From assembly GCA_017512365.1 (NCBI GenBank), contig JAFWGQ010000049.1:1-64000 (forward strand): 64,000 nucleotides of DNA. The letters run 5' to 3'. Numbering within the stretch: position 1 is the first letter of the stretch; each line of letters begins with the position of its first letter. This stretch comes from Mogibacterium sp. Its GTDB lineage: Bacteria; Bacillota; Clostridia; Peptostreptococcales; Anaerovoracaceae. This document shows positions 7,887-42,259 of this stretch, in pieces. The position numbers and the translations under genes are program-made. Under the pieces are notes generated by a model. It searched no databases, was not told where the DNA came from, and saw only the letters and a program-made list of their open reading frames with translations.

Positions 7887-9116
7887 TCATTCGTCTGCGC
7901 TCGCCCTGTTCAGCAGAGCCCACATCACAAGGGCGGCAAGAGCGAAGCCCACTATCGCATAGAAATTGGTGTCGTAGCTTCCTCCGGCCTTCTCGAGCAG
8001 AGCCGACGATATCATCGGTCCGATGGTCGCAGCCGGTATGAGGCTGAAATTGGCTATGCTGAAATTGGTCGGGAAATTGGCAGACCCGAAGGCGCTGTTT
8101 ATGTAAGCCGATGTGATCGTCGGGCATCCCCCGTAGGCAAGGCCCACGAACACAAGACCGCAGAGTATGAACGCATACATGCCCGTCATGCCTCCGAGAG
8201 TGAGCAGGACGCCCGCTCCGAGCATGAACGCCGTATTGACGATGGTCGACATCTTCCTTCCGTGTCTGTCGAAGTTGTTTCCGGCTATGATGCGTCCAGC
8301 GCCGTTGAAGAGCGAGACTATCATGCCGAGGACCGCAGTGCCTCCGAACGCGACGGATATGTTCGCGGCGCTGTTTATGACGAGAAGTCCGGCGGAGTTC
8401 AGGAGTATGGCCCATATCGTAAAGAACCAGAACCTCGCCGTCCCGAGCATCTCGACCGCGGTGTAGTTCCTGACATCTCCCGAGGTCTTCCTGTCGTCCG
8501 CTCCCGCAAGGGCGGCGAGCTCCGCGGCGTCTTCCGCTCCGGGCGCTTTGATGATGAGCGCGGCCAGCACGCAGACGACGCCGATGACTACAGCCAGTAT
8601 CCTGAACACGGCGAGTATGCCCATCGAGCCTATCATGGAGTTTACGGCCGAGCCCAGCACGAGCCCTCCCAGGCCGAAGCCCATCAGCATGATGCCCGAA
8701 GCGAGCCCCACCTTGTCGGGGAACCACTTGTTGAGCGTGCCGATGACGCCGTTGTAGGCGATGCCTACTCCGCCGCCTCCGAAGACTCCGTAGAATACAT
8801 AGAGCATCACCAGACTCGCGGACGGCGCGTCGGTCTTTACTGTCGACACGGCAAAGAATCCGGTCAGCAGCATCGCAGCGGACATGAGCATCCTTGCCCT
8901 GATGCTGAGCTTTCTGCTCAGGAGTCCCCCGGCAAAACCGCCGAGACAGAAAAATATCATCGATATCGTGAATGTCAGGGACAGCTGTGATATGGTCCAT
9001 TCAGGAAAAAGCTCTCCGAAAGGCGTCCTGAATATCGACCACGCGTATATCAGTCCGAGAAAGAGGAGCGTTATCGTCCCCATCCCGAGATATATCCATC
9101 TTTTGTTCGATCGCAT
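7887..9116 (-). CDS. MFS transporter, oxalate/formate antiporter (OFA) family
   Basis: 409 residues with about 12 membrane helices. The N-terminal GLIYAWSIFRTPF and the loops GGGGVGIAYNGVIGTLNKWFPDKVGLASG and GRIIAGNNFDRHGRK follow the OFA subfamily of the major facilitator superfamily, which exchanges small carboxylates. The substrate cannot be read from sequence. GGAGG precedes the ATG at 9116. It lies between the DUF975 gene and feoAB on the same strand with gaps of 38 and 13 nt and no terminator, so it is probably part of one transcript from the promoter at 9981-10009. A monocarboxylate role would fit the adjacent C4-dicarboxylate genes, but that is a guess. Confidence 0.85.
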   Translation of the reverse strand: MRSNKRWIYLGMGTITLLFLGLIYAWSIFRTPFGELFPEWTISQLSLTFTISMIFFCLGGFAGGLLSRKLSIRARMLMSAAMLLTGFFAVSTVKTDAPSASLVMLYVFYGVFGGGGVGIAYNGVIGTLNKWFPDKVGLASGIMLMGFGLGGLVLGSAVNSMIGSMGILAVFRILAVVIGVVCVLAALIIKAPGAEDAAELAALAGADDRKTSGDVRNYTAVEMLGTARFWFFTIWAILLNSAGLLVINSAANISVAFGGTAVLGMIVSLFNGAGRIIAGNNFDRHGRKMSTIVNTAFMLGAGVLLTLGGMTGMYAFILCGLVFVGLAYGGCPTITSAYINSAFGSANFPTNFSIANFSLIPAATIGPMISSALLEKAGGSYDTNFYAIVGFALAALVMWALLNRASADE

Positions 9117-28969: not shown

Positions 28970-30376
28970 TTATTTTTTTGAGATCAGCACGCTTTCTCCG
29001 CGCCTGAGATATCTTCCGTCTCCCCTGCTGCCGGTGAACTTTCCGTCTCTGGCTATCTCGCTTCCTCTCAGAAGGACTCTGTCGATCCTGCCGTCGAGAG
29101 TCATGCCTTCGTAGCATGAATAATCCGATGCCCCGCGGATGTACGCTCTGTCGATCACCGTCTTCCCTGCCGGATCGATCATGACTATGTCCGCGTCTGT
29201 CCCCGGCTCGAGCGATCCCTTCTGAGGATACATACCGAACATGCGGCACGGTTCTGCCGAAGCGTACCTGACCACCTGAGGCAGGCTTATGCGTCCCTTC
29301 ATGAAGCCCTCGGAGAAAAGCAGCATCAGCCTCTCCTGCACGCCCGGCGCTCCGTTGGGGCACTTAGTGAAATCGTCCCTGCCGTACTGCTTCTCGGCTT
29401 TGCCCTCCTTGAAGTGGAACGGGCAGTGGTCGGTAGCCACCGTATCTATGATGCCTCCTTCGGCGAGCGCCTGCCAGAGTTCCTCCCTGTCCTGATCTTT
29501 GCGGAGCGGCGGCGACATTATCGCCTTGAGCCCCTCCTCAGGATCATCGTACGCGCTGTCATTGAGTATCAGATACTGTATGCAGGTCTCGACGCCGAGG
29601 TTCGGCCTGTTCTCGGCCCTTGCCTTCATCACCTCGTGCAGTCCCTCCGCGCTCGAGAGATGCACTATGTATAAAGGCGCGTCCCCTGCCATAGCGGCTA
29701 TGTGTATCATGCGGTTCACCGCCTCGGCTTCGCACCTTGCCGGTCTTGAAAGCGGGTGGTACTTCGCCTCGGTATGGCCCTGCTCTGGCAGCTCCTTTCT
29801 GAGCTGAGTGAGGACTCCGTGGTTCTCGCAGTGCACGGTGATGACTATGCCGGCCTCCTTAGCCGCTCTGAGCACGCGGAAGACTTCATCATCCTCGAGC
29901 CTGTAATCGTATGTCAGATAGACCTTGAAGCTTGTGATGCCTTCCTCTTCCTTTATCTCCTTCATCTCATCGAAAGTGTCGCCGTGCACATGCTGAAAGA
30001 CTCCGTGGAAGCCGTAGTCCACGACCGCGTTGCCGTCGGCCAGCCTGTGATATTCGTTCACCTGATGCCACAGGCTGCAGTCCTTCGGTCCGAAGGCCAT
30101 GTGATCGACTATGGTCGTCGTGCCTCCGCACGCCGCCGCGACCGTCCCGTCATAGAAGTCGTCTACAGCCCGCGCGAAGCCCACATCGAGATCCATGTGG
30201 GTATGGACATCGACTGCTCCCGGCATCACGTACATGCCTTCCGCGTCGATAACCTCGGCATCATCGCACCCGATGTCTTCGCCGACCCTGACTATCTTCT
30301 CATCTTCGATAAGGATGTCTCCTTTGAAGACCTCGGTATCCGTCACGATCTGTCCGTTCTTTATTACTTTCTTCAT
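28970..30376 (-). CDS. hyuA: Dihydropyrimidinase/D-hydantoinase family enzyme
   Basis: 468-residue cyclic amidohydrolase. Binuclear zinc site: DVHTHMD, carboxylated Lys in SFKVYLTYD, TVHCENH, YIVHLSSAEG and ATDHCPFHF. Substrate loop SPPLRKDQD. The protein is complete and typical in length. It matches HyuA of the E. coli purine/selenium locus and should open a hydantoin-like ring in anaerobic urate/purine degradation. The ribosome site (GGCAGAGAAAAG) is weak. Its upstream region 30377-30709 contains the phased inverted-repeat array and no other gene, so control of hyuA is the most obvious role for that array. Confidence 0.92.
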   Translation of the reverse strand: MKKVIKNGQIVTDTEVFKGDILIEDEKIVRVGEDIGCDDAEVIDAEGMYVMPGAVDVHTHMDLDVGFARAVDDFYDGTVAAACGGTTTIVDHMAFGPKDCSLWHQVNEYHRLADGNAVVDYGFHGVFQHVHGDTFDEMKEIKEEEGITSFKVYLTYDYRLEDDEVFRVLRAAKEAGIVITVHCENHGVLTQLRKELPEQGHTEAKYHPLSRPARCEAEAVNRMIHIAAMAGDAPLYIVHLSSAEGLHEVMKARAENRPNLGVETCIQYLILNDSAYDDPEEGLKAIMSPPLRKDQDREELWQALAEGGIIDTVATDHCPFHFKEGKAEKQYGRDDFTKCPNGAPGVQERLMLLFSEGFMKGRISLPQVVRYASAEPCRMFGMYPQKGSLEPGTDADIVMIDPAGKTVIDRAYIRGASDYSCYEGMTLDGRIDRVLLRGSEIARDGKFTGSRGDGRYLRRGESVLISKK

Positions 30377-30425
30377 CTTTTCTCTGCCGCTCTTCCTCTC
30401 TGCTGTTTCTGCACGCCCGGTGATA

Positions 30426-30706
30426 TGTGTATTATCTGCTCAAAATGCTTGTTTCATACACAAAATAAGCTTATTCATTGATCATAAATCAGTCTGATGA
30501 TGCGTTTTTGTGTATTATTTCCATATGATCCGGTTGTCATACACAACTTTTACCGAATTCCTGTGTATGGTTCTTCTGTTTTGGCAGGAAAATACACAAA
30601 CAGGCCCGGTTCACGGTCTTTTCAGGCATGGATCAGCCGTTTTTTGTGTATGACTGTCATCATTTGAAGAAATAATACACAACTCTGCCCGGATGGATGA
30701 CACACA
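30426..30706. repeat. Helically phased array of four TGTGTA-N25-TACACA inverted pairs
   Basis: This fills the 333-nt gap between the xanthine dehydrogenase stop and hyuA. TGTGTA cores start at 30426, 30509, 30562 and 30645. Their inverted partners TACACA start at 30457, 30540, 30593 and 30676, each exactly 31 bp on. A degenerate ninth site, CACACA, is at 30701. Inter-pair steps are 52, 22 and 52 bp, so all steps are close to whole helical turns. The extended half-site reads T(C/A)ATACACAA, always flanked by A/T. The alternating 83/53/83-bp unit spacing suggests an old 136-bp duplication. The halves are one base (position 2) from a DnaA box (TTATNCACA). Most likely a cooperative operator array for hyuA; the protein is unknown. 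Confidence 0.85.
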
Positions 30707-30709
30707 ATT

Positions 30710-33574
30710 CTACTTTTTGCTGTAGTAGGTGTCCTCCATCGGAAGCGAAGTTCTGAGAACTCCGTCTCTTGCGTAGTAAGCTCCGGCGACGGCAGGCGCA
30801 GCAGGGATCGTGGTGATCTCGCCTATCCCCTTGGCGCCGTAGGCCGCGTCGAGCAGCTCATTCTTTTCTATATGTATCGCGTGTATGTCAGGGATGTCCG
30901 TTGCCCGCAGGAGGCCGAGCGTCCCGTATCTTGCCGTCGGCACGCAGTCCTCGAGCGGCCAGTGCTCGGTCAGGGCGTAACCCATGCCCATCAGTACTCC
31001 GCCTTCGATCTGGCCCGACATCGACAGAGGGTTCACCACTTTGCCGGCGTCAAACGCCGCGTAGATGTCAGTGACTCTGCCCTCCGCATCCAGTACAGCG
31101 ACATTCGTAGCGTATCCGTAAGCTATGTGGCTCTTCGGATTTGGCTTGTCCGAGCCGAGCTTGTCGGTCGGTTCGAAATATTCGTATTCGAATCTCCTCC
31201 CGTTAAAGCGTCCAAGGGTCTCTTCCGTGACCCCCTCTTCATCCATGGCTGCCTTCAGGAGCTTTGCCGCTTCCTTTACGGCCTCGCCCGTCACAAGGGT
31301 CTGCCTCGAGCCCGATGTCGTCCCGGAGTCAGGCGAATTGCCCGTATTGCTCGGTCCTACCCATATCTTCGTAAGCGGCAGCTCAGTAGCCTGGGCCACA
31401 TCCTGGATGAACACGGTCTGGCAGCCCTGCCCTATGTCCGAAGCCGCGGTGTATATCCAGACCAGACCGTCCTTTATCTCCAGAACAGCCCTTCCCTTGT
31501 CAGGAAGACCTACCCCGACTCCCGCGTTCTTCATGGCGCAGGCGATCCCGACCCTGTCTTCGGGGGCGTCATCGAAGTATGGCTTTACCGCGACGAGAGT
31601 TTCCTTCAGCGCCGTCGACACATCTGCTATCTGCCCGTTCGGAAGCTCCAGACCGGGCTCGATGGCGTTGCGGTATCTTATCTCCCACGGGCTTATGCCG
31701 ACCTTTTCGGCAAGCACGTTCAGAAGCGACTCGAGCGCGAACTGGCTCTGGCACACGCCGAAGCCCCTGAACGCTCCCGCAGGAGGGTTGTTCGTGTAAT
31801 ATCCGTGCCCGCGTATGTCCGTGTTGTGGTAATTATACGGTCCCACGCTGTGTGTGCAGGCTCTTTCGAGCACAGGCCCGCAAAGGCTTGCATAAGCTCC
31901 TGTATCGAAGTCTATGTCACAATCGAGAGCTTTCAGTATGCCGTTCTCATCGCATCCCAGGGTGAAGGTCCCTTCCATGGCGTGCCTTTTCGGATGCACA
32001 CGCAGGGATTCGCTCCGGCTGAATTTCGCCTTTACAGGTCTGTTGAACTTCAGCGCCGCCAGCGCGGAAATGTGCTGGGTCGTCACATCTTCCTTTCCTC
32101 CGAACCCGCCGCCTATGAGCTGGTTCTCGACGATTATGCGCTCCGGCGTATCCTCCCAGCCAAGCATGATGCTTACCTCATGCCTGGTATCGTAGGCGCC
32201 CTGATCGGTCGAGAGTATCTTCACTCCGTCTCCGTACGGGAACGATACCGCGCACTCCGGCTCGAGGAAGGCGTGCTCTGTGAAAGGCGTCCTGAAGGTC
32301 CCGGTCACAGTGTATGCCGATTCCTTCATCGCCTTCGCCGCGTCTCCCCTTACCACGTGTCTCTGCTGGCAGAGATTTCCGGCGGAGTGCACCTTCGGTG
32401 CGCCTTCGGCCTTAGCCTCGGCGATGCTCCTTACCGGCTCGAGCGGCTCGTATTCTATCTTTACGGCCTTCTTTGCCTGCTCGAGTATGTACGGGGACTC
32501 TGCGACCACAAGGCATATCGCGTCTCCCACCATCCTTGTAGTGTCACCTTCGGCTATCATGACATCCCAGTCCTGCTGGATATGCCCCACCTTGTTGTGC
32601 GGCACATCCTCAGCGGTCAGGACACCGAGGACTCCCGGCAATGACTCCGCCTTTTCCTTTATTATCTTCTTTACTACCGCCCTCGGATATCGGGATCTTA
32701 CCGCCGAGCAGTATGCCATCGGAGGCATCTCCGGATCCACCACGGTAAATATATTGCAGAGAGGCTCGTCTTTTCTGGAAACTGTCATGCCGATCCCGGT
32801 CAGTCCCTTTGCCGAGGCTTCCTCATATTCTTCTTTTGTCCAGCCGGCCAGCTCCATCATGAGATCCGGCCTGTCGGCAGGCACGAAATATTCAGGGCCT
32901 ATGTCATCAGGATACTTGCCGTATCCCAGGACCTTCTTCCTGACATCGATGCGGAACACGTTCTGCCCCACCCCGAACTCGGTGGATCTGCCTTTGTTTT
33001 CGTAATTCTCTATGCCTGACGCCAGCTCAGGGTCGTATTTCGAACCCACGACAGAGATGAACTCCTTCTGCTCCGGCAGCATCTTGCCGGTGAACTGGAC
33101 GACATCCCTTATCTCTTCTTCTCCCCTGAGGATGGCAGCGGCTCTTTTTATGCCCGTGATTATCTTCTTGTATCCGGTGCAGCGGCATACATTGCCCCTG
33201 ATCGCTTTTTTTATCTCAGTCGCGGACGGATCCGGGACTTTGTCGATCAGAGCCTTTGCTGCCATGACCATTCCCGGTATGCAGAAGCCGCACTGAACGG
33301 ATCCCGCCGTTCCGAAAGCGTATACGAAAGCTTCCTTCTCGCGCAGGGAAAGTCCTTCGACCGTGACTATGCTTTTGCCCGCCGCTCTTTCTGTCGTAAG
33401 GACGCACGATCTTACCGCATAGCCGTCCACCACGATGGTGCAGGTGCCGCAGGCCCCCTCCGAGCAGCCGTCCTTTACCGAGTACAGCTTAAGATCGTCC
33501 CTCAGATATCTCAGGAGGGGCTTGTTCTCTTCGGTCGTTCTTTCTGTTCCGTTTACTGTGAATGTATAAGCTAT
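30710..33574 (-). CDS. Selenium-dependent xanthine dehydrogenase (fused 2Fe-2S and Mo domains)
   Basis: 954 residues. The N-terminal domain binds two [2Fe-2S] clusters: C37, C42, C45, C57 and C95, C98, C130, C132. The molybdopterin domain has GGGFGGKED (Glu at the bovine XDH Glu802 position), LERACTH (Arg at the Arg880 position), GAFRGFG and GAKGIGEITTIPAAP with the base-catalyst Glu. These residues mark a true purine hydroxylase. There is no FAD domain, as in the Se-dependent XDH family. No ATG, GTG or TTG exists upstream of residue 48, which lies beyond the first cluster Cys. The frame reaches back to an ATA codon placed 7 nt after AGGAGG, with an in-frame stop just before it, so AUA is the probable start. 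Last gene of the merR-xdh operon. Confidence 0.88.
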   Translation of the reverse strand: MAYTFTVNGTERTTEENKPLLRYLRDDLKLYSVKDGCSEGACGTCTIVVDGYAVRSCVLTTERAAGKSIVTVEGLSLREKEAFVYAFGTAGSVQCGFCIPGMVMAAKALIDKVPDPSATEIKKAIRGNVCRCTGYKKIITGIKRAAAILRGEEEIRDVVQFTGKMLPEQKEFISVVGSKYDPELASGIENYENKGRSTEFGVGQNVFRIDVRKKVLGYGKYPDDIGPEYFVPADRPDLMMELAGWTKEEYEEASAKGLTGIGMTVSRKDEPLCNIFTVVDPEMPPMAYCSAVRSRYPRAVVKKIIKEKAESLPGVLGVLTAEDVPHNKVGHIQQDWDVMIAEGDTTRMVGDAICLVVAESPYILEQAKKAVKIEYEPLEPVRSIAEAKAEGAPKVHSAGNLCQQRHVVRGDAAKAMKESAYTVTGTFRTPFTEHAFLEPECAVSFPYGDGVKILSTDQGAYDTRHEVSIMLGWEDTPERIIVENQLIGGGFGGKEDVTTQHISALAALKFNRPVKAKFSRSESLRVHPKRHAMEGTFTLGCDENGILKALDCDIDFDTGAYASLCGPVLERACTHSVGPYNYHNTDIRGHGYYTNNPPAGAFRGFGVCQSQFALESLLNVLAEKVGISPWEIRYRNAIEPGLELPNGQIADVSTALKETLVAVKPYFDDAPEDRVGIACAMKNAGVGVGLPDKGRAVLEIKDGLVWIYTAASDIGQGCQTVFIQDVAQATELPLTKIWVGPSNTGNSPDSGTTSGSRQTLVTGEAVKEAAKLLKAAMDEEGVTEETLGRFNGRRFEYEYFEPTDKLGSDKPNPKSHIAYGYATNVAVLDAEGRVTDIYAAFDAGKVVNPLSMSGQIEGGVLMGMGYALTEHWPLEDCVPTARYGTLGLLRATDIPDIHAIHIEKNELLDAAYGAKGIGEITTIPAAPAVAGAYYARDGVLRTSLPMEDTYYSKK

Positions 33575-38014: not shown

Positions 38015-39355
38015 CTAGTACTTTCTGTGGTTGAGCTCGCCCCAGAGCTTTTTGCTCTGCTCGAGCGTCCATGCGTTTATGGCCTCTTCGTCGATGCCGA
38101 CGAATTCTCTGTCCTTGTAGAGGACCTTTCCGTTGATGATCGTGGTCCTGCAGTTCTTGCCCATCATGCCGAAGATCATGTGGCCGTCGATATTGTCCGC
38201 CGAGAACGGCGTGAACGGCTTGTAGTCCATGACGATCACGTCGGCCGCAGCTCCCTCTTTCAGGATGCCGAGAGGCTTTTTGAAGTATTTGGCCGCGATC
38301 TTCCTGTTGTTCTCGAAGAGCATGGTCACATCCTCGCCCCATGCAACGTTAGGCATCGCGGCGTTATGTCTCTGGATGATCAGGAAGACCTTGAGGCTCT
38401 CGAGCATGTCGTGGGTATACGCGTCCGTGCCCATTCCGACAGTGATGCCCTTTGCCATCATCTGCAGCACAGGCGCGCAGCCTACGGCGTTGCCCATGTT
38501 GGACTCAGGGTTGTTGACCACCATCGTGCCCGTCTCTTTGATGATATCCATCTCGGCAGGGCTAACGTGTATGCAGTGTCCGAGCAGGGTCTTCTCACCG
38601 AGGAGCCCGTTGTACAGGAGCCTGTTGACAGGTCTGCAGCCGTAATTCCTGAGGCTGTCGTAGACATCGTTCATGCCCTCGGCGATATGGATATGGAAGC
38701 CCGTCATGCCGTCGTTTGCTTCCACCATCTTTTCGAAGGTCTTGTCCGAGATCGTGAAGAGAGCGTGCCCGCCGAACATGGCCTTGATCATGTCGTCATC
38801 CTCATCCTTCGCCCACTTCGCGAAGTCAGCGTTCTCCTTTATGGCCTGAGCCGTCTTTTCCTCTCCGTCTCTTTCGGAGACTTCATAGCAGAGGCAGGAT
38901 CTCATGCCGAGCTCCTTCGCGACGTCTTTGATCGCGAACAGCGATCCCGGTATCTCGCAGAAGCTTGCGTGATGATCGAAGATCGTCGTTACGCCGTCTC
39001 TGATGCAGTCGAGGATGGTGGCGTACGCGCTGGCTTTGGTGCCGTCTATAGTCAGATGGCGGTCGATGTTCCACCACATGCCGTCGAGTATCTCGAAGAA
39101 GTTCGTCGGATTGTGGCCGTCTATCGCAAGGCCCCTTGCGAGGCCGGAATAGATATGAGTGTGCGCGTTGATGAGACCCGGCATAATGATGCCGCCCTTC
39201 GCATCGACGAATTCGGCGTCAGGGTAAGCCTTTTTCATGTCCGCGAGAGTTCCCACAGCCCTGATGACTTCGCCGTCAGTCACGACAGCTCCATCCTTAA
39301 GATAAGGGAATTCAGGGTCCCTCGTTATCACCTGTCCGTTACCTATTAAAAGCAT
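38015..39355 (-). CDS. ssnA: SsnA family aminohydrolase
   Basis: 446-residue amidohydrolase of the TRZ/ATZ group, always linked to ygfK and selenium hydroxylases. Metal ligands: NAHTHIYSG, GFHIHIAEG, LGHCIHVS and the Asp in GMGTDAYTHDM. The stretch GLARGLAIDGHNPTNFFEILDGMWWNID is a typical SsnA block. The C-terminal part has DVIVMDYKPFTP. AGGGAGG lies 8-9 nt before the ATG. It lies between xdhD and ygfK with short gaps. Proposed to deaminate or open a purine-derived intermediate. Distinct from the 8-oxoguanine deaminase at 22406-23767, to which it is only distantly similar. Confidence 0.93.
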   Translation of the reverse strand: MLLIGNGQVITRDPEFPYLKDGAVVTDGEVIRAVGTLADMKKAYPDAEFVDAKGGIIMPGLINAHTHIYSGLARGLAIDGHNPTNFFEILDGMWWNIDRHLTIDGTKASAYATILDCIRDGVTTIFDHHASFCEIPGSLFAIKDVAKELGMRSCLCYEVSERDGEEKTAQAIKENADFAKWAKDEDDDMIKAMFGGHALFTISDKTFEKMVEANDGMTGFHIHIAEGMNDVYDSLRNYGCRPVNRLLYNGLLGEKTLLGHCIHVSPAEMDIIKETGTMVVNNPESNMGNAVGCAPVLQMMAKGITVGMGTDAYTHDMLESLKVFLIIQRHNAAMPNVAWGEDVTMLFENNRKIAAKYFKKPLGILKEGAAADVIVMDYKPFTPFSADNIDGHMIFGMMGKNCRTTIINGKVLYKDREFVGIDEEAINAWTLEQSKKLWGELNHRKY

Positions 39356-39376
39356 ATTTCATCCTCCCTTCATGCA

Positions 39377-42259
39377 TTACTGTATCTTTCCGAGTTCGCG
39401 GAGTATCTTCTCCGGAGTCATCGGCCAGCTTCTCATCCAGACGCCGCAGGCATCGTGGATGGCGTTTCCTATGGCAGGAGCCGCGCCGTTGCATGCGATC
39501 TCGGATATGGACTTAGCTCCGAACGGACCGTCCGGATCGTCCACGTCTATGAGCACTGCCCTGAAGTCATCCGGCTGCTCGGAGATCATCGGCACGCCGT
39601 AATCTGTCATAGTCGCGTTCACGCAGCGGCCTTTCTCATCGAGTATCATGTCCTCGTAGAGCGTGTGGCCGATGGACTTGAGCGATGCTCCGTACATCTG
39701 GCAGAGAGCCGCCTCAGGATTGATAGGCGTGCCCGCGTCCTGAATAGCGTAGAACTTCTGGACCTTTACCTCGCCCGTCCTTACATTGACAGCTACCTGC
39801 GCGAAGTGCGCTCCGTACGGTACTGATGATGCCGCCGTCGTGAAGCTTCCCGGAGCAATGAGATGTCCGCGTCCGGTCCCGGATGTAGATGTGTGGATTA
39901 TGTCGTAGAACGACAGCACCTTGCCGGTCTTCTTCGACTTCACCTCGCCCGGCCATGCTATCTTCATGTCATCGACGGACTCTTCGAGCTGGTACGCGGC
40001 CTCATCGAGTATCTTATCCTTCAGGTTGGTGGCTGCAACTACCGCAGCGTTGCCGCTGAAGAACGTGCCCGACGATGCGTATGAGCCCGTATCGAAAGCG
40101 CCGGAGTCGGTGTCGCCGGATATGACCGTGATCTTATCCATAGGCACGCAGAGTATGTCGCTCGTGACCTTGGCGATGATGGTGTCAAGGCCGGTGCCGA
40201 TGTCGGCAGCTCCGGAGAGCACGATTATCGAGCCGTCCATCTCGAGCTTTGCCACAGCGTTCGCATGATCGAGCCCCGGAAGTCCGGACCCCTGCATGAT
40301 CATCGCAAAGCCCTTGCCGATCTTCCAGTCAGGGTCGCCGCTTTCGACCCTCTTGCCCCACTCTATCATCTCGCAGCCCTTCTCGACCGCTTCGCGGAGC
40401 CCGCAGGATCCTACAGGCACGACGTTTCCTTCGCGGCCCTCGCCGAGACCTTTAAGGATCTCGAGCATGTAGCCTTCTTCAACGTGGTTCTTGAGGACCA
40501 TGTCCTTGTAGTCAACGCCGAGCTTCTCTGCGAGCTCGCACATCGCCATCATGAGGCCGTATGTGCCCTTAGGCGTGCCGTAGCCCTGGTAGGCTCCCGC
40601 AGGAGGCGTGTTCGTGTAGTAGATCGTAAGATCGTATTTCATGTTGTCGCACTTGAACAGCGGCAGGGTCTTCGAGCAGCTGTTCATCGGCACCGTCAGA
40701 GCGTGGTTGCCGTAAGGTCCGGTGTTGGCGTCGACCTTGAGGTAGATGCCTGTGATCGAGCCGTCCTTCTTGCCGCCCATCTTTACATGGACGCGCATCG
40801 GGTGCCTGGTGGAGTTAGCGATGAACTCCTCCTCTCTCGTATTATGATAAAGCACTGGTCTGCCGGTAACATAAGTGGCGTATGCTGTCAGGTCCTCTAC
40901 GAGGATGTCCTGCTTGGAGCCGTATCCGCCTCCGACCCTGGTCTTTATTACGTGTATCCTGTTCTCGGACAGTCCCGTGACCCAGCTCACGATGCGGCGC
41001 ACATGGTAAGGCACCTGTGTGCTCGCGTAGATTATGAGCCTGCCGTTCTCGAGCTTCGAGAAGCAGATATGCGTCTCGAGCGGAGTATGCTGGATCTGGC
41101 TGGTCTGGTATGTGGCCTCGACCACGGCGTCGGCCTCCTCGAATGCCTTGTCCACATCGCCTATGCCGCCGTGGTTCGCGGCAGCAACGTTATGCAGTAT
41201 GTCGCCGTGCAGCGGGAACTGGTACACTACCTTGCCCTCGCGCTCGTCTCCGGAGAGCTTCGCGTTGTATTCGTCGAGATTGTCCGGCGCTCCGGAGTTG
41301 TACTGGACTCTTCCGTTATGCACCAGAGGCGCTCCCTCGGCCATTGCCTCCTCTACCGTAAACACGGCATCGAGAGGTTCATACTCGACCTCTATGAGGT
41401 CTCTGGCCTTTATCGCCTCTTCGAGAGTCTCGGCTACGACCGCCGCGACCCTGTCGCCCACGTGCCTGACCTTCTTGTTGATCAGTTTCCTGTCATGCGG
41501 CGACGGCTCCGGATTGCCCTGGCCGGCCGACATGTATGTTGCGTCCGAACAGTTGTAGGCAGTGATGACTTTGATGACTCCCGGAAGGGCCTCGGCCTTG
41601 CTGGTGTCCACCTTGTTGACATAGGCGTGAGCATACGGCGAACGCAGGACGACCATGTAGCATGTGTCCTCGTCCACGTAATCCTCCACGAAGGCCCTCT
41701 CGCCCGAAACGAGCTGAGGAGCGTCGATCTTAGGCATGACCTTGCCAACCGCCTTGAGATGCGGCCTGAATTCAGGCGCTATCTCTGTCCTGTACTCGCC
41801 GTTTTTAATCTTTTCCTTTATGAGCTCTGCAGCGAGATAGTAATGCTCATAGCTTGCGTCTCTGATGAATATGCCTGAAAGCGCATCCTTTACGTCATCT
41901 CTTGTCGGAGCCGGATTTTTTTCGAACAGCCATGTCATCAGCAGGGCCGCAGCCGGAGCATTATAAGCGCTCTGCACCACGCCCGCATCGATGAGAGCCT
42001 GCTGAACCACCGTGAGGTGCATGGAATCTCCGAGGCTGTCAGGAGTGATGATCTCGCATCCCTCGGCCTCTCCGGCGAGCACCAGGTTCGAGAACACAGG
42101 CGTGCCGTCGAGCAGTACCGTGTCGCTTCCGCAGAACCCCTCCGCATCGTCGCTGTCGCGGACGGCGAAGTTCCCGTTCATCAGGAGCATCTCGCGGAGC
42201 CTCTTTACAGGGTCGATATCGAATGACCGTTTTTTGCCGTTTATCGTACAGTTGATCAT
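39377..42259 (-). CDS. xdhD: XdhD molybdopterin hydroxylase with degenerate N-terminal Fe-S domain
   Basis: 960 residues, collinear with E. coli XdhD. Residues 1-150 keep the fold of a [2Fe-2S]-[2Fe-2S] domain but have lost nearly all ligands: the CxxxxCxxC loop reads RDSDDAEGFCGSD with one Cys (C43), the QCGFC motif reads QSAYN (96-100), and the CRCTGY motif reads IRDASY. From ~170 on it is a complete molybdenum hydroxylase: GGGYGSKQD, GAYQGYG, GTGLDTII, and FGAKSISEIACNGAAP with the catalytic Glu. The Glu802 position is Gln, so it differs from the neighbouring xanthine dehydrogenase. GGAGG precedes the ATG, 2 nt from the ygfM stop. Electrons must leave through other subunits, probably YgfM or a separate ferredoxin. 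Confidence 0.92.
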   Translation of the reverse strand: MINCTINGKKRSFDIDPVKRLREMLLMNGNFAVRDSDDAEGFCGSDTVLLDGTPVFSNLVLAGEAEGCEIITPDSLGDSMHLTVVQQALIDAGVVQSAYNAPAAALLMTWLFEKNPAPTRDDVKDALSGIFIRDASYEHYYLAAELIKEKIKNGEYRTEIAPEFRPHLKAVGKVMPKIDAPQLVSGERAFVEDYVDEDTCYMVVLRSPYAHAYVNKVDTSKAEALPGVIKVITAYNCSDATYMSAGQGNPEPSPHDRKLINKKVRHVGDRVAAVVAETLEEAIKARDLIEVEYEPLDAVFTVEEAMAEGAPLVHNGRVQYNSGAPDNLDEYNAKLSGDEREGKVVYQFPLHGDILHNVAAANHGGIGDVDKAFEEADAVVEATYQTSQIQHTPLETHICFSKLENGRLIIYASTQVPYHVRRIVSWVTGLSENRIHVIKTRVGGGYGSKQDILVEDLTAYATYVTGRPVLYHNTREEEFIANSTRHPMRVHVKMGGKKDGSITGIYLKVDANTGPYGNHALTVPMNSCSKTLPLFKCDNMKYDLTIYYTNTPPAGAYQGYGTPKGTYGLMMAMCELAEKLGVDYKDMVLKNHVEEGYMLEILKGLGEGREGNVVPVGSCGLREAVEKGCEMIEWGKRVESGDPDWKIGKGFAMIMQGSGLPGLDHANAVAKLEMDGSIIVLSGAADIGTGLDTIIAKVTSDILCVPMDKITVISGDTDSGAFDTGSYASSGTFFSGNAAVVAATNLKDKILDEAAYQLEESVDDMKIAWPGEVKSKKTGKVLSFYDIIHTSTSGTGRGHLIAPGSFTTAASSVPYGAHFAQVAVNVRTGEVKVQKFYAIQDAGTPINPEAALCQMYGASLKSIGHTLYEDMILDEKGRCVNATMTDYGVPMISEQPDDFRAVLIDVDDPDGPFGAKSISEIACNGAAPAIGNAIHDACGVWMRSWPMTPEKILRELGKIQ

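Follow-up and report, generated by a model that had tools for sequence, protein, structure and literature searches.

Phased half-sites between hyuA and xdh of a Mogibacterium sp. are probably a gene-less copy of a dispersed, nuclease-linked repeat

Free-standing homing endonucleases of the PD-(D/E)XK type (I-Ssp6803I) bring together a restriction-fold nuclease, a mobile gene and a symmetric target. In REPIN/RAYT (TnpA-REP) systems an enzyme gene is accompanied by cognate short inverted repeats that also occur as many gene-less copies, and enzyme and repeat coevolve (PMC3116915, PMC8266576). The arrays described here would share with homing endonucleases a nuclease of putative restriction fold, a seemingly mobile gene and a symmetric target, but the array target is carried by the element itself and gene-less arrays outnumber genes 15 to 1 among the 16 loci of the window's genome. 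With REPIN/RAYT they share an enzyme gene with cognate inverted repeats, gene-less intergenic copies and enzyme-repeat coevolution; the enzyme, however, is PD-(D/E)XK-like and not Y1/HUH, and the repeat consists of eight phased half-sites over 256 bp, partly within the ORF of the enzyme, with no sign of a single-stranded hairpin. We think it reasonably likely that nuclease and arrays form a mobile or homing-like system, one that would be REPIN/RAYT-like in its working and unrelated in enzyme and architecture. The array first seen between hyuA and xdh is probably a solo, gene-less copy of this dispersed nuclease-linked element and not a switch for hyuA.

The window, meaning the whole stretch of 64,000 nucleotides that was analysed, contains the following features.

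28970 to 30376, minus strand: amidohydrolase 'hyuA' (PF01979), downstream of the insertion
30377 to 30709: hyuA-xdh junction, 333 bp, filled by the array; 5 to 66 bp and array-free in 21 relatives, 89 bp in G025
30426 to 30462: pair 1, TGTGTA-N25-TACACA, exact match, 0 in 100 shuffles
30509 to 30545: pair 2, exact pattern match
30546 to 30561: 16-bp dyad centre, ACTTTTACCGAATTCC, from the window sequence
30562 to 30598: pair 3, exact pattern match
30645 to 30681: pair 4, exact match, by eye similar to the one pair that G025 has in this junction
30701 to 30706: ninth half-site, decayed to CACACA; a perfect half-site of G025 aligns with it
30710 to 33433, minus strand: molybdopterin hydroxylase, xdh-like (PF02738, PF20256), upstream of the insertion
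39356 to 39376: array-free xdh-like/amidohydrolase junction, 21 bp, from tblastn and ORFs

Exact TGTGTA-N25-TACACA pairs occur four times between 30426 and 30681 and nowhere else in the window, and 100 shuffles produced none, confirming the sequence-only reading of eight half-sites in four 31-bp inverted pairs with gaps of 52, 22 and 52 bp between pairs. The core starts follow each other at steps of 31, 52, 31, 22, 31, 52 and 31 bp, with dyad symmetry about 30553, and the 15 TGTGTA arrays with a 16-bp centre share the centre consensus ..TTTTcgcGAAAAgC. The same reading had placed all cores near one helical face, and this was borne out: the resultant of the eight half-sites is 0.97 at 10.4 bp per turn, 0.93 at 10.5 and 0.72 at 10.6, and random phases reached 0.9 in 0.015% of trials. 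The ninth site proposed at 30701 aligns with a perfect half-site of G025, which adjoins the xdh stop codon there, but is out of phase with the others. The remark that no other cluster of the motif exists is true of the window, where 8 of the 18 occurrences of TACACA (11.3 expected) lie inside the array, but false for the genome, which has arrays at 16 loci. It is plausible that a dedicated protein binds the window array cooperatively, along one helical face.

The sequence-only reading also found a cluster that titrates DnaA conceivable. Six of the eight half-sites differ from the DnaA-type word TTATACACA by a single base, each at position 2, so the earlier statement that the difference is always there holds for these six but not for sites 5 and 6, CCATACACA and AAATACACA, which have two differences; none of the eight matches the DnaA box TTATNCACA. 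Arrays of identical layout are spelled in GGTGTA, GGTGTG, GATGTA, GTTGTA or ACTGAA, which disfavours DnaA; of all the readings considered we hold this one to be the least probable.

The sequence-only reading had also treated the array as a regulatory site of hyuA and the purine genes. Its position directly upstream of hyuA and its helical phasing would suit an operator of the hyuA/xdh cluster under a local regulator, and absence of the motif upstream of hyuA in close relatives had been named as the result that would speak against it. Absence is what the comparison gave. The amidohydrolase is present in 31 of 47 genus genomes (E<=1e-100), and we read 24 loci, the window's own included; one of them (L147) was unreadable, and the other seven gene-bearing genomes, for which there was no locus to read, stand outside the count. 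In all 21 other readable relatives xdh and hyuA lie 5 to 66 bp apart with no array, and the closest relative, G025 (91% identity), has a single pair (N23) in a gap of 89 bp. The same arrays adjoin unrelated genes, once between convergent ORFs (L057), and examination of the window's MerR- and YheO-type regulators by Pfam found no link to the array. As 21 of 21 relatives are without the array and the 16 loci of the genome lie by unrelated genes, the operator reading is unsupported; we rejected it on the array-free junctions, and its probability is now very slight.

The window's genome (G000) has 33 exact N25 pairs against one for the backward control, and 44 when N24 to N26 are allowed. A generic two-pair pattern gave 24 forward matches at 16 loci in this genome (rows counted by hand) and matched 10 of the 47 genus genomes, with at most one match per genome and strand for the reversed control. 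Nine of the 16 loci have all eight half-sites (at most one mismatch), six have six or seven and one has four; the words used are TGTGTA and GGTGTA, and a single locus, on contig C43, is a nuclease gene (L053), the other 15 being gene-less. Scanning genome contigs for the pattern returned 22 stretches, labelled Mogibacterium (3), uncultured Clostridiales (17) and Ruminococcus (2), and viral contigs lacked the TGTGTA two-pair pattern. In the loci collected for comparison we catalogued 54 distinct arrays scoring at least 18, weaker ones being dropped and a few being cut by contig ends, and most have one layout. At one locus (L015) adjacent TGTGTA and GGTGTA arrays are joined by a pair made of half of each word. 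A GC-rich repeat of ~120 bp flanks composite arrays in inverted orientation (L052 7626-7745 and 8658-8775, and L054), and a stretch that resembles it by eye follows the stop codon of one nuclease gene (L077); this is a further family of dispersed repeats.

As is expected of MITEs and insertion sequences, arrays stand where relatives have an empty site; this was seen at four junctions: hyuA-xdh, truB-ribF, the start of a periplasmic-binding lipoprotein gene (PF01497), and xdh-ssnA in G003. The truB-ribF interval of the window's genome measures 295 bp and contains four pairs; that of the relatives is -5 to 131 bp and without a pair in 29 of 29 (30 loci read, own included, of 43 matching genomes). 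The lipoprotein gene has an array upstream, with the start codon inside it, in G000 and G025, where the 600 bp before the match score 23.5 and 31.5 against 4 to 11 in 19 of 19 other relatives; a stretch of ~85 bp with one pair is present there in G025 and missing from G000. In G003 (L068) the counterparts of window ORFs 39377-42259 (94%) and 38015-39355 (92%) are ~890 bp apart and have arrays between them, where the window has 21 bp; the names xdh, ssnA and ygfK for this second region are our assumption. No target-site duplication was noticed at the junctions viewed. The arrays resemble MITEs and insertion sequences in being short copies between genes that are non-autonomous and have a coding relative, but that relative has no transposase match, and internal sequence diverges while cores and spacing stay. 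Their insertions fall between closely spaced genes of an operon, and the start codon of a host gene can end up inside an array. Before the same lipoprotein gene, L242, L243 and L246 have other tandem TGTGTA-containing repeats, and single inverted pairs precede substrate-binding lipoprotein genes that look alike in G000 (L051, 8331) and G003 (L071, 8080).

The array on contig C43 overlaps the start of an ORF of 283 aa (L053:8438-9289). It spans the upstream region, the Shine-Dalgarno sequence (GGAGG directly before the start codon) and the first ~23 codons, with no promoter recognised, and an ORF of 43.5% identity in G021 (L072) has the same arrangement. Scans of these two proteins gave nothing above Pfam cut-offs, nothing in NCBIfam and no match to a Y1 or other transposase. 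PADLOC found that their C-terminal part resembles the candidate defence proteins PDC-S68 (best E 2.5e-24 and 1.2e-28), and in one of the two it also matched HEAT_CxxC_PDDEXK (E 0.004). All 40 aligned sequences share residues E180 and D210. An AlphaFold2 model from 40 sequences (pLDDT 90.5, pTM 0.60) has an N-terminal helix and a three-stranded sheet; Foldseek gave no match to it at E<=0.001 (best E-values 0.036 and 0.077), the top, non-significant matches including the restriction-fold nucleases NucS, ACE1, TnsA and Card1, and a PDB sequence search gave none. As the Foldseek E-values are weak, we base membership of the PD-(D/E)XK group on the motif together with the match in PADLOC. We presume a kinship to Vsr/MTES_1575-type domains; an AP2- or integrase-arm-like N-terminal domain, which we assumed from the predicted helix-sheet-helix order, had no significant structural match in Foldseek.

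The nuclease family is present in 42 of 47 genus genomes (E<=0.001), 31 of 297 order genomes (1e-40) and 9 of 299 phylum genomes (1e-15), in several of the last by the C-terminal part alone. Phage and plasmid origins were tried and rejected. Eleven viral stretches matched peptide patterns, with none confirmed as a relative, and three short phage records were weak, one covering 81% of the query at 26% identity; the two plasmid matches cover one third of the protein, in AAA ATPases.

Sequence kinship of the C-terminal nuclease region with PDC-S68 would fit a defence effector that is checked or aimed by its array, the dispersed arrays being decoys or safety sites and not mobile copies. PDC-S68 models exceed 1200 residues, against a stand-alone protein of 283 aa here. 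The way the arrays are inserted, and the coding remnants in some of them, indicate copying instead, and we hold a defence role to be improbable. The remnants come from a comparison of solo arrays with the N-terminal coding sequence of the nuclease, in which 10 of 42 arrays exceeded all 20 core-preserving shuffles where two were expected; the other 32, the window array included, gave no remnant in this test. A remnant in the window array noticed by eye, ATGGATCA before site 7, was negative in the shuffle test and is not claimed.

Over 37 full arrays the cores carry 1.75 to 2.0 bits, partly by construction as they were the search key, position +1 carries 0.7 to 1.6 bits and the spacers mostly less than 0.5. 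Median spacer identity between arrays is 34%, with cores and spacing kept. Complementarity within pairs is clearly above random only at positions +1 to +3 beside the core (z 6.2, 3.0 and 2.5), and its ending so close to the core favours double-stranded DNA. Rfam returned one sub-threshold mir-392 match for the array (24 bits against a cut-off of 62) and so no structured-RNA family; on pair statistics and Rfam together we rejected an RNA or single-stranded DNA hairpin.

These figures bear on whether the arrays are a REPIN/RAYT-type element whose hairpins are processed as single strands by a Y1/HUH transposase. Short inverted repeats scattered between genes would fit such an element, as would a Y1-type transposase gene with two in-frame stops (G000:C20:9364-9726) ~2.3 kb from a solo array. 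The restricted complementarity and the two nucleases without a Y1 match count against it, as does the distribution of Y1 transposases (PF01797), which occur in 4 of 10 solo-array genomes and 20 of 37 others (p=0.5); a RAYT partner was rejected because PF01797 is unrelated to the presence of arrays. Neither a Y1/HUH transposase as cognate enzyme nor a hairpin-forming repeat was found here, pairing past the core being clearly above random at +1 to +3 only, and we regard this reading as very improbable. A further REPIN/RAYT feature, an enzyme gene beside the repeat together with dispersed copies, was found except in G025, G008 and G066, assemblies 76-90% complete that have arrays and no close nuclease.

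The nuclease-array reading is supported by a coupling between half-site word and nuclease lineage. We examined the loci of the 13 closest homologues whose 5' side was readable (L077-L081, L083-L090), L082 being cut by a contig end. In 11 of the 13 the array finder scored 16 to 29.5, against per-locus maxima of 10 to 13 over three shuffles; L088 (14.0, null 11.0) and L090 (11.5, null 11.5) were weak, and for L079 the 29.5 belongs to a downstream array, the one at the start codon scoring 27.5. Ten of the 11 array-bearing homologues have their sites at about -187, -155, -104, -72, -51, -20, +32 and +63 relative to the start codon, and the final two fall within the ORF. In the remaining one (L087) the array is shifted upstream by one 83-bp unit and is built of two words, ACTGTA and CATGAC, in dyad order. 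Excision between flanking arrays was considered and rejected, as L079 alone has a second array in the ~560 bp downstream of the 10 close gene copies read.

On this one layout the close homologues use TGTGTA, GATGTA, GGTGTA, GGTGTG, TCCGTA/TCAGTA, GTTGTA/TTTGTA and ACTGAA. Two loci that are orthologous by their flanks differ in word: L081 has GGTGTA at five sites and GGTGCA at three, and L083 has GGTGTG at seven of eight. At sites 7 and 8, inside the ORF, the encoded amino acids differ along with the word (Y to W and Y to H), and the DNA word appears to dictate amino acids within the enzyme's own gene.

The rarer words were searched as exact patterns. Multi-pair GGTGTG arrays occur only in G003 (14 pairs) and G023 (4), both of which have a GGTGTG nuclease; the other 45 genomes have three single matches, and G023 has one single pair outside its nuclease locus. 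GATGTA pairs less than 300 bp apart occur only in G014 and G018, whose nucleases have that word, single matches being found in many genomes and G018 having a single pair alone outside its nuclease locus. A GTTGTA solo array and a GTTGTA nuclease are both in G063, among the matches listed. The TGTGTA and GGTGTA arrays extend beyond their nucleases, to G003, G069 and G000, where the word of the close nuclease is a different one. Of the solo-array genomes 7 of 10 have a close nuclease (E<=1e-70, a threshold picked after viewing the data), as do 3 of 37 others (p=2e-4), counts that are not independent trials as the genomes are related.

The arrays might instead be sites for an architectural or regulatory protein of the host, the nuclease gene merely carrying one as its operator. 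Arrays in genomes without a close nuclease would be expected of such sites, as would host genes that start inside an array, in G000 and G025. The solo array shared by L050 and L066 at an orthologous position has 36 of 36 core bases identical and 81 of 136 spacer bases, a core figure that is inflated because the locus was found by the motif; the comparison suggests selection at the site itself, something that purely selfish spread would not require. A host protein, however, would lead one to expect one word per species, and G003 has arrays in three; the words vary with nuclease lineage, the rare-word multi-pair arrays occur only in genomes with the matching nuclease, and the arrays are lineage-specific insertions. 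We therefore consider a host protein alone unlikely, though less so than a defence role. The strongest facts against the nuclease-array reading are the three array-bearing genomes with no close nuclease and the apparent selection on the solo array in place; both would allow for a protein or function of the host.

If the nuclease does recognise its array, one subunit would read one half-site of 6-8 bp in double-stranded DNA, a dimer would span each inverted pair (31 bp, three turns) and four dimers would align on one helical face in an octamer-sized complex, which may repress the nuclease's own gene. The active enzyme might cut arrays, perhaps within a pair, and repair or insertion could then spread the gene or the bare array in a homing-like or REPIN-like manner. 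Solo arrays could come from gene loss or from spread of the array alone; the routes we considered are homing, transposition of the array, and insertion of the complete unit with later loss of its gene.

On balance we lean, if only slightly, towards an undescribed bacterial mobile system in which a stand-alone PD-(D/E)XK-type nuclease would use a phased platform of eight half-sites over its own start codon, enzyme and word coevolving to the point where the coding sequence tracks the word, and gene-less arrays being dispersed and selected. Two defining features of REPIN/RAYT were looked for and not seen, and we found no family or paper that describes it; the open-access (PMC) literature yielded work on REPIN/RAYT, MITEs, Rpn and homing endonucleases and nothing that we recognised as this system. 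Were all enzyme-linked dispersed repeats counted as one kind, it would fall within that kind. What looked like an operator thus becomes evidence for an unnamed nuclease-repeat system, a parallel to REPIN/RAYT with unrelated parts, and its natural enzyme-word pairs, seven words on one layout, are material for a protein-DNA recognition code.

Distant homologues of the nuclease are mostly at null level for the eight-site layout, with L161 (TATGTA, 17.0 against 10.5) and L170 (GTTGGC, 23.5 against 12.0) as exceptions and L153, L154, L159, L164, L166 and L169 slightly above null. When words were counted without regard to layout, 12 of 36 distant homologues beat the best of 10 shuffles by at least 2 (L203, 11 against 6; L192, 9 against 6), although some of these excesses are plain tandem repeats, as in L096, where eight 21-bp tandem repeats lie upstream of the gene (~1004-1151). 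Related nuclease genes of another family, f15 (L203, L192, L191, L204), have repeated words upstream in other layouts, and the principle may thus reach beyond the genus. In L203 the word GACGTA occurs 11 times, with steps of 22-23, 29 and 51-52 bp, and L204 has CACGTA about every 32 bp. A different repeat was seen in G003 (L069, ~8140-8330), three near-identical units TGTGTATCATT...AATGATACACA at ~73-bp steps; the ORFs beside them look to us like dnaN and dnaA, and the units perhaps adjoin the replication origin of that genome.
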